64,000 nucleotides of DNA from assembly GCF_913773735.1 (NCBI RefSeq), contig NZ_CAJYEB010000016.1:1-64000 (forward strand). The letters run 5' to 3'. Position 1 is the stretch's first letter, and the number at the start of each line of letters is the position of its first letter. This document shows positions 55,286 through 64,000 of the stretch, piece by piece. The notes beneath the pieces are model-generated. The model saw only the letters and a list, made by a program, of their open reading frames with translations, was not told where the DNA came from and made no database searches. The stretch is from an uncultured Massilia sp. (GTDB lineage: Bacteria > Pseudomonadota > Gammaproteobacteria > Burkholderiales > Burkholderiaceae_D). A program made the translations under genes and the position numbers.

Positions 55286-56525
55286 GGCGGGGTTCTCCGG
55301 AAAGTGCGTTCAGGAAGCGCCGTCCGAGGACGGGATAGGTATGGTTGGCGAGGGCATGGGCGCGGCCGCGCCGGCCCAGGGCGGCCCGTTGCGCGGGGGA
55401 CAGCGCCATCAGGGCGAGGACCGCGTCGGCGACCGCGCGCGGGTCGTCCGGCGGCACGCTCAGGCCGCAGCCGGCCTCGGCGACGGGGTCGTTGCCCGCG
55501 TCCACCACGTGGAGCACGGGCCGTCCGGCCATCATGTAGTCGATCAATTTATTGGGCGAGATGCCGAAGCGGTACAGCGGCTGGCGCCGCCACCCGAGGT
55601 AGGCGGCGTCGAAGCGCCCCAGCAATGCCGGCACGCAGGCCTTGGGCACCGGGTCGAGGAAGTGGACGTTGGCCAGCCCCAGCGCGGCGGCGCGGCGCCG
55701 CAGGGCCGGCTTGTCGGGCCCGTCGCCCACCAGCACGATCGCGACGGGCCGGCCTTGCAGCCGCGCGGCGGCGTCCAGCAAGGTGCCGAGCGCGTTGGCG
55801 ACGCCATGGGTGCCCGCATAGCCGAGCACGAAGTTGCCGTTGCGGCCGAGCGCCTCGAATGCGCCGGCCAGCGCCGGTGGCAGCGGCGCGCGCGGGCCCT
55901 CCCATTCGCCCGGATCGACGCCGTTCGGCACCAGGTGCAGCTTGTGCGGCGCCATGCCGTGCGCCTCGAGGTGCGCGCCTGCCCGGGGCAGGATCGAGAC
56001 GACGGCGTCGGCGCGCGTGCAGGCGAAGTCTTCTGCCGCCTGCAGCAGCATGATGAACGGATGCCAGCGCGAGTGCCCGCCCAGTTCCATCGGCGACAGC
56101 GGCCACAGGTCGTGCAGTTCGAACAGCAACCGTGCCCCGGCCAGGCGCGCGATGCGGTGCGCGGGCCAGATGTCCAGCGGGTAGGTGCTGGAGGCGATCA
56201 CGGCGTCCGGGCGCAGCGCGGCGGCCAGGCGCGCCGCCTCGCGGCGCAGGCGCAGCACGAAGGCCAGCATGTTGCGCACCCGCGCCGCGCCATTGCCGCG
56301 GTAGGGCGGCGTCGCCAGCCAGGCATAGTCGATGCCGTCGATGGTCTCCAGCAGCCGGGGCCGGCCATCCAGGGACGGCGCCTGGCTGCGCAGGTGCGAT
56401 TCGGACGAGGCGACGATCGTGACCCGGTGGCCCTGGCGCACCCATTCGCGCGCCAGGTAGTAGGGCCGGTACTCCATGCCGTGGCGCACCGAGCCGGCAT
56501 AGTGGTTGATCAAGAGGATGTTCAT
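55278..56525 (-). CDS. Glycosyltransferase, GT4 family
   Basis: A 415-residue cytoplasmic GT-B glycosyltransferase. The N-terminal domain starts at [10 protein letters not shown] with a Gly-rich loop and [11 protein letters not shown]. The GT4 nucleotide-binding half is visible in [33 protein letters not shown] and the E/D-containing [18 protein letters not shown]. Sugar and acceptor cannot be told. The start at 56525 is shared as ATGA with the stop of the upstream deacetylase-like gene. Confidence 0.88.
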
Positions 56526-57307
56526 GTGTGCCACGCCAGTTCCTCGGCCAGGCGCACCACGTTGCAGCGGGTGCTCTCGAGCCAGTTGGTTTCCCATTGC
56601 ACGGGATGGGTCAGGAAGCAGATGCGCGCATGCCGCCCCAGCGCCTCGAACGGCGACAGGGGCGTGTAGTAGACGGGGTAGGGGCGGTCGCTGATGTACA
56701 GGTCGAAGTGGCGCAGCAGCTCGTTGTCGTAGGATTCGCATTCGATGCCGCAGCGGCGGCGCAGCTCGGGGTCGCGCAGCAGCTCGTGGTTGATCACCTG
56801 CAGGCGCCGGTTGGCGAAGTCGCCGTGGCTGGCGACGGTCGTCATGGGCAGCCCGAGCTGTTCGCGGATGCGCGTGAAGTTGCGCACGAACAGCTCGCGG
56901 ATTTCGGGGAAGCGCGCGCGCACGTCGTCGCCGCGGCGCAGGCGGTGGCGCTTGGCGAAGGTCGCCACCTCCTCGTAGTGGTAGCTGGCCTCGCTGCCGG
57001 CCGCTTCGATGTCGCGCATGAAGCCGTAGTCCAGCGTGCTCAGGCGGAAGTAATAGCTGGCGCCGACCCCGTGCTTGCGCTCGAGCGCGAACATCTTGCG
57101 CGCCGTGCGCACGTCGCTGTCGATGTCGTGCCGGTGCACCAGCACCTTGCCCGCCTGTCCGTCCGTATCGCGCACCGCCCGGTAGAAGTCGCGTACCGAC
57201 AGCTGGCGGTAGCCGGCCTGGCGGGCCGCCGCCAGCAGGGCTTCGTACTCGCGCAGCCGCGACGGCATCAGGTAGTCCGAGTACAGGCGGTTGAGCAGTG
57301 TCTTCAT
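56522..57307 (-). CDS. Polysaccharide deacetylase-like protein
   Basis: A 261-residue protein. VLVHRHDIDSDVRTARKMF (about residues 55-73) resembles the NodB-type metal motif (D followed by D/H), YYFRLSTLDYG follows, and a later HGDF and HPVQWETNW match histidine-containing motifs of exopolysaccharide-locus deacetylase-like proteins. There is no signal peptide, so it would act in the cytoplasm, perhaps on lipid-linked or nucleotide sugars. It overlaps both neighbours by 4 bases. Identity as a true deacetylase is probable, not certain. Confidence 0.65.
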   Translation of the reverse strand: MKTLLNRLYSDYLMPSRLREYEALLAAARQAGYRQLSVRDFYRAVRDTDGQAGKVLVHRHDIDSDVRTARKMFALERKHGVGASYYFRLSTLDYGFMRDIEAAGSEASYHYEEVATFAKRHRLRRGDDVRARFPEIRELFVRNFTRIREQLGLPMTTVASHGDFANRRLQVINHELLRDPELRRRCGIECESYDNELLRHFDLYISDRPYPVYYTPLSPFEALGRHARICFLTHPVQWETNWLESTRCNVVRLAEELAWHT

Positions 57308-58008
57308 TGCAGGCTGTACTTCACGTGGTAGGGTTCGAACCCGAGGATGCGCTTGAAGTGCTGCAGCCCGGGCTGGGCGCCGAAGAAGGTGTCGTACATC
57401 AGGTAGCGCACCTCGCCGCGCTCCAGCAGGCGCACGACGATGTCCACGACCAGCAAGTGCATGATGCCGTCGTTGTTGCGCAGGCCGATCAGCTGGGAGA
57501 AGGCGCTGAAGTCGCCATAGCGCGCGATGTTGGCGTAGGCGACCAGCCGACCCCCGCCGTCCAGCACGCCGTAGTACTCGTAGTGCGGCTGCGTCTCGAA
57601 GCGCGTGGCCTTGCGGCGGTAGTGGTCGTCCATCGGCCGGCCCTGGCGCGTGTCGAGCGCGGTATTGATCGCGTGGATCGCGTCCACGTGCTCGTTGCGC
57701 TCGATCGGCCGGCACACGTAGCCGCGCGCGCGCGCGCGCCGGGCGTGCCAGGCGCCGCGGTTCTTGCCGGCGATGGCCGCGAGGTAGGCCGCCGGTCCGT
57801 CGAAGCGCCCGAGGTCGAGGAGGGCGGCGCCCACGGTCTTGTTGCCGATGATGCGGTAGCGCGGATGCGGCCTGGTGAACTGGCGGTAGACGGCCGGGAT
57901 GTCGTCCGGCGCCAGCCGCGCGTCGAAGCGCAGGCTGGCGCGCGGCAAGCGCACCACCTGGCGCAGTGTGTCGGCGTGACGGGCAATGTCGTTCAGGAAG
58001 CTGCGCAT
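57304..58008 (-). CDS. GNAT/FemAB-like protein of the polysaccharide locus
   Basis: A 234-residue cytoplasmic protein. The C-terminal half has the alternating strands of an acetyltransferase fold: YEYYGVLDGGGRLVAYANIARYGDF, then MHLLVVDIVVRLLERG and a terminal FKRILGFEPYHVKYSL typical of GNAT ends. The N-terminal half (IIGNKTVGAALLDLG) is less clear. A run of seven CG dinucleotides near 57723-57736 encodes Arg/Ala repeats. The start at 58008 is chosen because the DNA beyond it is low complexity. Function inferred only as acyl or aminoacyl transfer. Confidence 0.6.
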   Translation of the reverse strand: MRSFLNDIARHADTLRQVVRLPRASLRFDARLAPDDIPAVYRQFTRPHPRYRIIGNKTVGAALLDLGRFDGPAAYLAAIAGKNRGAWHARRARARGYVCRPIERNEHVDAIHAINTALDTRQGRPMDDHYRRKATRFETQPHYEYYGVLDGGGRLVAYANIARYGDFSAFSQLIGLRNNDGIMHLLVVDIVVRLLERGEVRYLMYDTFFGAQPGLQHFKRILGFEPYHVKYSLQ

Positions 58009-58195
58009 GATGACCTCGTGGCGATGGAACGTGTGGCGGTACGTTGGCCGCGGCAGGCGCCGGCGGCGTGCTTGGCGGCGCTGTCGGCGTTCTTGGCGGC
58101 GTTGTCGGCGTTCTTGCCGGCCGTGCCGCCGGCGGCATTGCCGGATCGGCGGCCGGATCGTGGGCCGGGACGGTGCCGTGCATGCCGGCCCGGCC
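58009..58195. other. Low-complexity junction DNA
   Basis: Between the GNAT-like and GT4 genes, made of short imperfect repeats of the GGCGGC-G/T type (for example CTTGGCGGCG and TGTCGGCGTT units at about 58070-58115). It continues into the 3' end of the GT4 gene to about 58430. No protein-like frame, promoter or terminator is seen. Confidence 0.6.
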
Positions 58196-59533
58196 TCATG
58201 CCGCGCGCTCCGGCGGCCCGGTGCCCGCGCCGCTGCCGGCGCCGCCTCCCGTGCGGCAGCCCGCGCAGCTTCCGGTGGTGCCTCCGGTGGTGCTTCCTGG
58301 GCCGCTGCCGGTGCCGCTTCCCGCACCGCCGACCGTGCCGTTGCCCGTGGTCGGGGCCGCGCCCCTGCCGTTGCCGCCGCCGTTGTCCCTGCCGTTGCCC
58401 GCGCCGCGCGCGGCCGGGGCGGCGCCCGGGGCCAGCAGCGCGTCGTAGAACGCGGCCAGCTTGTCCGCTTCGCCGCGCCAGTTGTAGCGGGCCTGCACGG
58501 CGCGGCGGCCGTTCTCTCCCATGCGCCGGGCGACGTCCGGGTGGCGGCACAGGTGGTCGATCGCGGCGGCGATCGCGGCCGGGTCGCCGGGGTCGACGCA
58601 GACGCCGCAGTCGTTGCCCTCGACGATGTCGCGCCACAGCGGGAAGCGCGAGGCGATCACGGGCAGGCCGGCCGCCATGTACTCGAACATCTTGACCGGC
58701 AGCGCATCGAGGTAGTTGGCCACCGGGTGCAGCGTGACCAGGCCGGCCAGCGCGCGCCGCATGGCCTGGCGCACGCCGGCGCGGTCGAGGTGGCCCCGTG
58801 CGACGACCCGCGCCCAGCCCGGCTCGCGCAGCATTTCCCGTTCCAGCGCCGGTTCGGCGAAGCGGCCGGCCAGGACCAGGCGTGCCGGGCCCTGCAGCAG
58901 CGCGCAGGCGCGCACCAGTTCGCGGATGCCGCGGATCGCCGAGATGCTGCCGACGTAGCACACCTCGTCCGCCTTGCCGTTCCAGTCCGGCGCGCCGTCG
59001 AATTCCTGCAGCAGCGGATAGTTGTTGACGTCGACGGTGTTCGGATGGATGCGCGCCAGGCGCGCGCCGATGAAGGGCGTGGCCGCGACCAGGCCGTCGA
59101 AGCGGCGGCAGGCATGCCGTTCGTAGACGGCCCATGCGCGCGACAGCAGGCGCCGCGACAGGCTGCCCAGGTAGGGCTTGGCGAGCAGCTGGGCCGGCAC
59201 GTCCTCGTGCGAATCGAACACGACGCGGCGGCCCAGGCGCTTCAGGCGCAGGCCGGCCGGGATCAGCTCGGGGTCGTGCAGGTGGTAGACGTCGGCGTCG
59301 AGCCGCCGCGCGGCGCGCAGCACGGCGCGCGTCGTGCGCAGCACGCGGTTCAGCCGGCCCGGCAGGAAACCGGCGTCGACGATCCGCACGCCGTCCGCGC
59401 GCTCGTCGCCCAGCCCGTCGGCGACGACCAGCGTCACCTCATGCCCGCGCTCCGTCAGGCTGTGGCACTGCTTGACGAAGATCCTCGTGTCGTAGCGCGG
59501 ATGGGCCGAAGTCAGGTGCACGATATTTGCCAT
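58196..59533 (-). CDS. Glycosyltransferase, GT4 family, with Gly-rich C-terminal tail
   Basis: A 445-residue glycosyltransferase. The N-terminus (IVHLTSAHPRYDTRIFVKQCHSL) and VYHLHDPELIPAG are typical of this GT4 subgroup; the second domain has EVCYVGSISAIRG and VKMFEYMAAGLPVIASRF, the nucleotide-sugar site. The fold ends near residue 365; the last 75-80 residues are Gly/Thr/Asn/Ser low complexity, encoded by repetitive DNA shared with the following gap. The start at 59533 has GAGAGGAA just upstream, which lies inside the Wzy-like gene: the two overlap by 95 bases in different frames. Confidence 0.85.
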   Translation of the reverse strand: MANIVHLTSAHPRYDTRIFVKQCHSLTERGHEVTLVVADGLGDERADGVRIVDAGFLPGRLNRVLRTTRAVLRAARRLDADVYHLHDPELIPAGLRLKRLGRRVVFDSHEDVPAQLLAKPYLGSLSRRLLSRAWAVYERHACRRFDGLVAATPFIGARLARIHPNTVDVNNYPLLQEFDGAPDWNGKADEVCYVGSISAIRGIRELVRACALLQGPARLVLAGRFAEPALEREMLREPGWARVVARGHLDRAGVRQAMRRALAGLVTLHPVANYLDALPVKMFEYMAAGLPVIASRFPLWRDIVEGNDCGVCVDPGDPAAIAAAIDHLCRHPDVARRMGENGRRAVQARYNWRGEADKLAAFYDALLAPGAAPAARGAGNGRDNGGGNGRGAAPTTGNGTVGGAGSGTGSGPGSTTGGTTGSCAGCRTGGGAGSGAGTGPPERAA

Positions 59534-60767
59534 ATTTCCTCTCGAACCGGTATTGCGCATAAGCGCCCAGCGTGGCGCCGACGAGCATGTCAGTGAAATA
59601 GTGGGACGAAACCAGCAGCAGGATCGTGACGCAGGCCAGTGCGAAGCCGAGGATGAACTCGGGCCGGCGCCGTCCGGCCAGGTATTCCTTGACGAACATC
59701 GGGATCGCGGGCAGCGCCGTCAGCGCCAGCAGATAGACGAAGCCGAACAGGCCCAGGTCGACCCAGGCCGACAGCACGTTGTGCGAGTAGTAGCCGGGCG
59801 CATAGCTGGCATAGGCGCCCATCAGCGGATGGGCGGCGATGGTCTGGCGCGCGTGCACGGTCAGGTGGTGGCGCTTGTTGGCCGAGGTCGAGTGCGACAG
59901 GTCGAGCAGCTCGAGGATGCGGTTGTCCGGCAGCGCCGCGACGAGCTCGTCCAAATGGGCGTGCAGCAGGGCGGCGCCGATGACGGCGCAGCCGATGAAG
60001 ACCATCTTGTGGCGCGTGAAGTACAGCTCGATGACCGGGATCGCGAACAGCAGGCCGGCGAACTCGCTGCGCGCCGTGTTGACGAACAGCGTCGCCGCGC
60101 CTGCGCCGTACAGCACGAGGCGCAGCAGCAGCGAGCGCGTATGGGCGACGACGGGCAGGAACGTCATCAGGTAGGAACGCGAGAAACCCTGGTAGGTGGC
60201 CAGCGCATCGGTGTCCTTGGCCATGCCCAGCTTGCCCAGGTAGAACACGCCGTTCACGGAAAAGCTGAACACGATCGCGCTCATGCCCGCCAGGCTGGCC
60301 AGCGCCATGATGCGGAACTGCCGCCCGGTGAAGTCGATCAGCGAGAACAGCACGAAGGTGTTCACCATGAACAGGATGCCCAGCACGTGGTTGGCGACGA
60401 TGGTGCGGTTGGCGCCGGCCGCGGCATTGACGACGATGACGACGAGGAAGTACGCGTTGAACAAGCCGTAGTGCAGGTCGATCGCGGACAGCCGGCGCGG
60501 GTCGCGACGCATGCGCGCGTGGTAGGCCAGCGCCAGCGGCAGCATGTACAGCAGCGCAATGGGCGAGAAATAGCCGCCCAGGAAGGCGCCGGTCGTGCCC
60601 GTGCCAAGCAGCGTGTGGTAATAGAAGAACCCCGGGAACAGCATGAAGAATGCCGAGTTCAGTAGCAACTGCTCGCGCGCCGCGCCTCCGGCGCCGCCTG
60701 TGCCGCCTGTGCCGCCCGCGCCGTCGATGCGCGCACCGTGGCTGCCGTTGTCGTGGATGGTCTTCAT
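59439..60767 (-). CDS. O-antigen/exopolysaccharide polymerase-like membrane protein (Wzy type)
   Basis: A 442-residue inner-membrane protein with about eleven hydrophobic helices and a large periplasmic loop (about 270-320, with LSHSTSANKRHHL and HPLMGAYASYAPGYYSHNVL), the layout of O-antigen ligase/polymerase family proteins. It would join lipid-linked repeat units. The first 33 residues are hydrophilic with GGTGGTGG low complexity. The C-terminal 31 residues overlap the following GT4 gene. Wzy proteins vary greatly, so the call rests on topology, the loop motif and its place next to the flippase. Confidence 0.8.
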   Translation of the reverse strand: MKTIHDNGSHGARIDGAGGTGGTGGAGGAAREQLLLNSAFFMLFPGFFYYHTLLGTGTTGAFLGGYFSPIALLYMLPLALAYHARMRRDPRRLSAIDLHYGLFNAYFLVVIVVNAAAGANRTIVANHVLGILFMVNTFVLFSLIDFTGRQFRIMALASLAGMSAIVFSFSVNGVFYLGKLGMAKDTDALATYQGFSRSYLMTFLPVVAHTRSLLLRLVLYGAGAATLFVNTARSEFAGLLFAIPVIELYFTRHKMVFIGCAVIGAALLHAHLDELVAALPDNRILELLDLSHSTSANKRHHLTVHARQTIAAHPLMGAYASYAPGYYSHNVLSAWVDLGLFGFVYLLALTALPAIPMFVKEYLAGRRRPEFILGFALACVTILLLVSSHYFTDMLVGATLGAYAQYRFERKYGKYRAPDFGPSALRHEDLRQAVPQPDGARA

Positions 60768-63200: not shown

Positions 63201-63872
63201 TCAGGGTTGGTCGGGGGCGGGGTCGGGCAGCAGCGTGCAGGTGCCGCCCGCCAGCACGTAGCGCTCGCCGGTGTGCGGGCAGCGCGCTTCGGCGTCGCCG
63301 CTGCGCGGCAGCGGCAGGCGTTCGCCGAAGCGGCTGATCCAGCCGAGCTGGCGCGCGGGTACCCCGGCCACCAGCGCGAAGTCGGGCACGTCGGCCTTGA
63401 CGACGGCCCCGGCGCCGACGAAGGCCCAGCGGCCGACGGTGACGCCGCAGACGATGGTCGCGTTGGCGCCGATGCTGGCGCCGCGCCGCACCAGCGTGCG
63501 CCGGTACGCATCCTTGCGCACGATGCCGGCGCGCGGGTTGTAGACGTTGGTGAACACCATGCTCGGTCCGCAGAACACCTCGTCCTCGAGCGTCACGGCA
63601 TCGTAGACGGAGACGTTGTTCTGGATCTTGACGCCGTCGCCGATGACGACGTCGTTGCCGACGAAGACGTTCTGGCCGAGCGAGCAGCGGGCGCCGATGC
63701 GGGCGCCGCCGCAGACGTGGGCGAAGTGCCAGACCCGGGTGCCGGCCCCGAGCGTCGCGCCGGCGTCGACGATGGCGCTGGGGTGGACGATGGCGCCGGC
63801 ATGGGCGCCATCCGGGCGGGCCGCGCCGTCGGTGCGGGCGCCGGCGGCCGTGGCGTGCTGGTTGGCGTCCAT
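63201..63872 (-). CDS. wbpD: UDP-3-amino-uronate N-acetyltransferase (WbpD type)
   Basis: A 223-residue left-handed beta-helix acetyltransferase. Hexapeptide repeats run from [21 protein letters not shown] (about 28-48) through [36 protein letters not shown] and [17 protein letters not shown] are WbpD signatures. It acetylates UDP-2-acetamido-3-amino-2,3-dideoxyglucuronate. The first 25 residues are Ala/Gly-rich. The ATG at 63872 is used; a TTG at 63878, overlapping the wbpB stop, is the alternative. Confidence 0.88.
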
Positions 63873-63874
63873 GC

Positions 63875-64000
63875 TCAATACTCCAGCGGCAGGGCCACGC
63901 GCCGGCCGTCGCGCGCGGAGCGGTAGGCCGCGATCAGCACCTCGAGCGATTTCAGGCCCTCGCGCCCGTCCGTCTCCGGCTCGGCCTCGCCGCGCAGCAC
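63875..64000 (-). CDS. wbpB: Gfo/Idh/MocA oxidoreductase, C-terminal end (WbpB type, cut by window edge)
   Basis: Only the last 41 residues are visible. They contain [18 protein letters not shown] and end in VALPLEY, the usual C-terminus of WbpB-like UDP-N-acetylglucosaminuronate 3-dehydrogenases of the Gfo/Idh/MocA family. The stop (63875-63877) lies 2 bases before the wbpD ATG. The name rests partly on its position before wbpD and wbpE. The catalytic domain lies to the right of the window. Confidence 0.7.

Follow-up and report, generated by a model that had tools for sequence, protein, structure and literature searches.

A stretch of 64,000 nucleotides from an uncultured Massilia sp. (contig NZ_CAJYEB010000016.1, positions 1 to 64,000; hereafter 'the window') contains, on the minus strand at 58196-59560, an open reading frame of 454 residues that encodes a GT4-type glycosyltransferase. 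This assignment was based on two Pfam domains in the 454-residue frame, both of which exceeded their curated cut-offs: Glyco_transf_4 (PF13439; residues 32-173, E-value 2.9e-16, 60.4 bits against a cut-off of 28.5) and Glycos_transf_1 (PF00534; residues 191-353, E-value 6.4e-19, 68.6 bits against a cut-off of 26.4). The best NCBIfam matches were EPS_EpsE (3.9e-16; 59.3 bits against a cut-off of 400) and stp3, which comprises XrtA-system glycosyltransferases (3.1e-14; 52.7 bits against a cut-off of 442); for these two and for stp2, all three GT4 families of exopolysaccharide clusters, the scores lay far under the curated cut-offs, so that the enzyme is a member of none of them. All Pfam matches to the glycosyltransferase finished by residue 368, and in an alignment of 36 sequences (35 relatives and the window's own) L368 was the last invariant and Y372 the last nearly invariant residue, while relatives found by tblastn with residues 1-375 aligned up to residues 372-375. 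These limits agree with an earlier sequence-only reading of this DNA, in which the GT4 fold had been placed as ending near residue 365. Residue 375 was taken as the end of the conserved part, which is intact and occupies 58436-59560 (minus strand).

Past residue 375 the frame runs on for 79 residues (58199-58435, minus strand), close to the 80 or so that had been estimated from the sequence, forming a Gly/Ala/Thr-rich C-terminal tail that was not seen in the relatives examined. The tail consists of 29 Gly, 14 Ala, 10 Thr, 6 Pro, 5 Arg, 5 Ser, 4 Asn and few other residues, and with Gly at 29 of its 79 positions, and Gly, Ala and Thr together at 53, it qualifies as a low-complexity protein region; GGC alone makes up 22 of the 79 codons. 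Translation terminates at a TGA (58196-58198, minus strand), which is followed by a gap of 187 nt (58009-58195) before the start codon of the next gene. No clear compositional break was seen at the stop codon, tail and gap being part of one T-poor, low-complexity tract (58041-58430, minus strand, 390 nt) with a GC content of 0.81 and 3% T on the coding strand, and the earlier observation that the composition of the tail goes on into the intergenic gap was thus borne out. When composition was followed in 60-nt steps, T made up 0-5% of each step within the tract, save for one step at 8% just past the stop, and mostly 10-20% of the steps in the flanking genes, apart from two near the end of the conserved part (5% and 7%). 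Neither a promoter nor a terminator was found in 57900-58600, and a search of 57700-58800 against Rfam (E<=1) returned a single match, at 13.4 bits against a cut-off of 80.

Over the 427 nt from 58009 to 58435, the TGA used by the glycosyltransferase is the sole stop triplet in the three frames of the minus strand. Frame 1 stays open between 58656 and 57306, a span that takes in the tract and the downstream gene, and frame 2 is open down to a TGA at 57995, overlapping the downstream start. As the tract is poor in T on the coding strand, stop codons are scarce in every frame, and since frames 1 and 2 are open as well, the openness of the tail frame is no evidence of selection.

The gene downstream of the gap (57304-58008, minus strand, 234 residues; 'the partner') likely starts at the ATG at 58008, to judge from relatives whose first Met, where shown, falls within a few residues of this position, most relatives being cut at their aligned starts. 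It belongs to no Pfam or NCBIfam family above cut-off: no NCBIfam match was obtained, the one Pfam match (E-value 0.08) scored 12.6 bits against a cut-off of 27, and a profile search against solved structures (PDB, E<=1) returned no match. An alignment of 27 sequences of the partner contained 47 invariant columns, and the C-terminal FK..LGF.P motif of the partner may resemble GNAT acyltransferases. The next gene of the cluster (56525-57307, minus strand, 261 residues) had no match in Pfam (E<=1) or NCBIfam (E<=0.01).

Tail length and junction length were compared with those of relatives drawn from two collections. In a genus set of 62 genomes (own genome included, with no second genome of the same species among them), 44, again counting the own genome, had a match to the glycosyltransferase at E<=1e-100, the closest other being 84% identical. 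The named relatives of the second collection were mostly Massilia, with Telluria, Billgrantia, Halomonas, Cupriavidus and others. Entries L051-L130 partly repeat the genomes of L002-L050, and removal of duplicates left 104 distinct loci, own locus included; one distant match (G100) stands outside the locus counts. At 102 of the 103 other distinct orthologous loci, 0-25 residues (median 6) followed residue 375, compared with 79 in the window. The single exception, L043, has 253 residues past residue 375 owing to an in-frame fusion to the partner. The 12 nearest relatives have their stop, taken as the ancestral one, 8-21 residues past residue 375, and tails of 1-15 residues were read in L044, L069, L070, L072, L078, L119 and L121. 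Among the relatives measured, L008 alone (21 residues) had a tail of at least 15 residues with at least 25% Gly. The sequence-only reading had named one observation that would contradict it, a tail conserved at the same length among distant orthologues; this was sought and was absent, the orthologues having either 0-25 residues (102 of 103) or the fusion. On these alignments the tail is specific to this lineage among the relatives examined.

The interval from residue 375 to the partner start is 427 nt in the window; the 12 nearest relatives (L002-L013) have intervals of 29-124 nt. The partner was found downstream on the same strand, within the fetched flanks, at 58 of the 103 other distinct loci, at a distance of at most 297 nt in 55 of them: 15 loci had an interval of zero or less, 36 one of 1-277 nt, 4 one of 296-297 nt and 3 one of 716-732 nt. 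In L106, which repeats the L045 genome and is therefore outside the 58, the partner lies 1614 nt after the glycosyltransferase stop. A long junction interval is consequently not unique to the window, whereas the Gly-rich tail is unique among the relatives examined.

The frequent proximity of the partner bears on the idea that the tail has been selected to work as a linker or anchor, perhaps holding the glycosyltransferase to the downstream enzyme or to a membrane synthesis complex, an idea that we consider unlikely. In addition to the 55 loci with a nearby same-strand partner, it is favoured by L043 (G040:C1:330584-334699), in which a second copy of the glycosyltransferase is fused in frame with the partner as a single open frame of 635 residues, the two being separate in the window and at the other loci measured. 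Third-position GC in the tail (0.90) is also near that of the conserved part (0.93), but frame 2, which is not the translated one, gives an equally high value over the tail (0.91). Moreover, no other orthologue examined carries such a tail, the Gly-rich linker is absent from the L043 fusion itself, and the same composition continues past the stop, where selection at the protein level is not needed to account for it.

Repeat scans of the tract, in which the sequence-only reading had described imperfect GGCGGC-type repeats, recovered two main arrays. A 36-bp imperfect array of 2.8 copies (72% matches, score 111) lies inside the tail (58223-58323, minus strand), and a 21-bp imperfect tandem array of 3.1 copies (88% matches, score 97) lies inside the untranslated gap (58056-58121, minus strand). 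When both strands were scored, codon shuffling reached the score of the tail array in 10 of 1000 cases and synonymous shuffling in 46 of 300; on one strand (score 84), codon shuffling did so in 11 of 300 cases, synonymous shuffling in 150 of 300 and dinucleotide shuffling in 4 of 300. The score of the gap array was reached by none of 300 codon and none of 300 dinucleotide shuffles of the gap, and for tail and gap taken together (score 97) the corresponding numbers were 0 of 300 and 1 of 300. The tail thus shows modest tandem repetition, most of which already lies in its amino-acid sequence, and the array that stands out most clearly against shuffles is the 21-bp array in the untranslated gap. 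The description as imperfect GGCGGC-type repeats was an overstatement: GGCGGC occurs 3 times, no more than three GGN codons stand in a row, and the tail signal is modest.

Translated in frame 2, the 21-bp array gives a Lys/Asn/Ala/Asp repeat with a third-position GC of 0.89, in a frame that stays open to the TGA at 57995. Together with the short overlaps of the glycosyltransferase and partner genes in the near relatives L004 and L009, this could mean that the gap is the remnant of a longer translated tail, cut off by a frameshift or a new stop. Such a history is unlikely in our estimate; frames 1 and 2 are open throughout as a result of T-poverty, and frame-like patterns therefore come cheaply in this DNA.

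The repeat periods found in the tract (12, 21, 24 and 36 bp) are all multiples of three, so that slippage would alter its length and not its frame. This argues against a frame switch, and no repeat unit of the kind expected of a phase-variable tract, that is, one that changes the frame, was present among these periods. The near-stop-free tract might otherwise be viewed as an evolutionary or phase-variable joint between the two partner enzymes, in which frame 0 would give separate proteins and the Gly-rich tail, frame 1 a fusion to the partner, and frame 2 a longer tail overlapping the partner start. The natural fusion in L043 shows that the fused state exists; even so, we regard a joint of this kind as extremely improbable.

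The tract is repetitive and GC-rich (0.81) and the genome is a draft of 52 contigs, features that would be compatible with an artefact of assembly or sequencing, in which the tract would be misassembled or carry indel errors and both the length and the frame of the tail would be wrong. The arrays, however, are imperfect and no longer than 182 nt, a size within or near ordinary short-read length; both neighbouring genes are intact and align with their relatives, and no long match to the tract exists elsewhere in the genome. An artefact is accordingly judged very unlikely.

The source of the additional DNA was sought in the own genome and in the genus set. A search of the own genome with 58009-58440 gave 59 matches at E<=10, self included, and those other than self were short low-complexity matches, the best of 61 nt at 82% identity. 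With 57990-58460 as query against the 62 genus genomes (E<=1e-8), self and one further match (104 nt, 75%) were returned, the latter in a locus that, by reading alone, we take for an infB gene with Ala/Lys-rich repeats. An origin of the tract by copying or from a mobile element was rejected, since neither the own genome nor, at E<=1e-8, any of the 61 others of the genus has a long second copy. The notion that Gly/Asn simple sequence is special to the own genome was likewise discarded: the pattern, with one mismatch allowed, was present in 40 of 62 genus genomes, with 10 (overlapping) occurrences in the own genome and 0-23 in others, and a reversed control pattern also occurred 10 times in the own genome. 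Seven of the low-complexity own-genome matches to the tract were read in context and assigned by eye only. Another Gly-rich simple sequence within a gene of the own genome is the Asn-Gly repeat NGNGNGNGNG at L135 (G000:C42, around 171109-171151), inside a protein that, judged by eye, seems to be of the polyphosphate kinase 2 type.

Other gene ends of the cluster were compared with those of relatives. In the adjacent gene (59442-60767), a second Gly-rich simple-sequence stretch (60680-60723, minus strand) marks an N-terminal insertion that exceeds the length seen in G013 and G048 by about 19 residues and, by eye, is also longer than in the near named relatives L052-L055, L057 and L058; some more distant relatives have other long N-termini. 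The gene at 63204-63998 (minus strand) has an Ala/Gly-rich N-terminal insertion of 9 residues relative to G013 and 20 relative to G045, weaker than that in 59442-60767. Relative to near relatives, gene ends in this cluster have thus gained low-complexity residues more than once. Insertions occur in relatives too, among the matches listed, a set that includes wrong-frame ORFs.

A census of Gly-rich C-termini (at least 16 Gly in 60 residues) was made with a crude gene caller that accepts some wrong-frame ORFs. Within 400 kb of the own genome it counted 1 among 288 gene calls, probably in a wrong frame; the other counts were 0 of 44 calls in the window, where the glycosyltransferase itself evidently went uncalled, 0 of 271 in G040 and 4 of 297 in G045, one of these probably in a wrong frame. 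Gly-rich tails are thus uncommon but not unique in the genus. The 288 own-genome calls contained no convincing Gly-rich tail, so that over the sampled portion the process is infrequent.

Taken together, these results are probably best explained by an ordinary expansion of low-complexity DNA where two genes meet. A GC-rich low-complexity tract would have grown in this lineage between the gene for the glycosyltransferase and that for the conserved partner downstream, with slippage and the short duplication of units of 12-36 bp as the probable process, and the ancestral stop would have been displaced or lost as a result. The ribosome would then read on to the TGA at 58198-58196, adding the 79 Gly/Ala/Thr-rich residues, as the T-poor DNA offers no earlier in-frame stop and translation continues to 58198. 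The resulting tail is probably disordered and is probably dispensable and near-neutral.

An expansion of this kind is supported by the length of the tail (79 residues against 0-25), the continuity of composition over the stop, the presence of a single stop triplet, the gap array beyond shuffles and, in the neighbouring gene, the second Gly-rich insertion of 19 residues against G013 and G048. Against it stand the longer intervals in relatives that lack such a tail (three of 716-732 nt, and the 1614 nt of L106), the census, with no convincing tail among the 288 own-genome calls, and the synonymous shuffles that reach the tail score (46 of 300), on account of which slippage cannot be seen directly in the DNA that encodes the tail. 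The proposal of a repeat expansion at a gene junction, put forward in the sequence-only reading, therefore holds for a lineage-specific low-complexity expansion (427 nt against 29-124 nt) and less well for tandem repetition, the signal of which is modest in the tail. The wider interest of the case is modest. It offers an example of T-poor, GC-rich low-complexity junction DNA that lengthens a conserved enzyme simply through the near-absence of stop codons, and for annotators it carries the caution that function should not be read into such tails.

A search of the literature, covering titles and the beginnings of abstracts with partial coverage, found no report of a GT4 enzyme with a Gly-rich tail. 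In bacterial proteins, according to one paper (PMC6821194), low-complexity regions have GGC as the commonest Gly codon and are most enriched in Pro, Gly and Ala. The tail in the window resembles those regions in being Gly/Ala-rich and of low diversity with GGC as its main Gly codon, and differs from them in lying at a gene junction, running past the stop and being unconserved among orthologues, whereas the title of that paper stresses conservation. In tetrapods, according to a second study (PMC11285758), low-complexity regions favour gene ends and high GC, and replication slippage was proposed as a cause. The window tail is likewise terminal and of high GC; that study deals with tetrapods, words that begin with 'prokaryot' and 'bacteria' occurring 0 times in its main text, while the case described here is bacterial.
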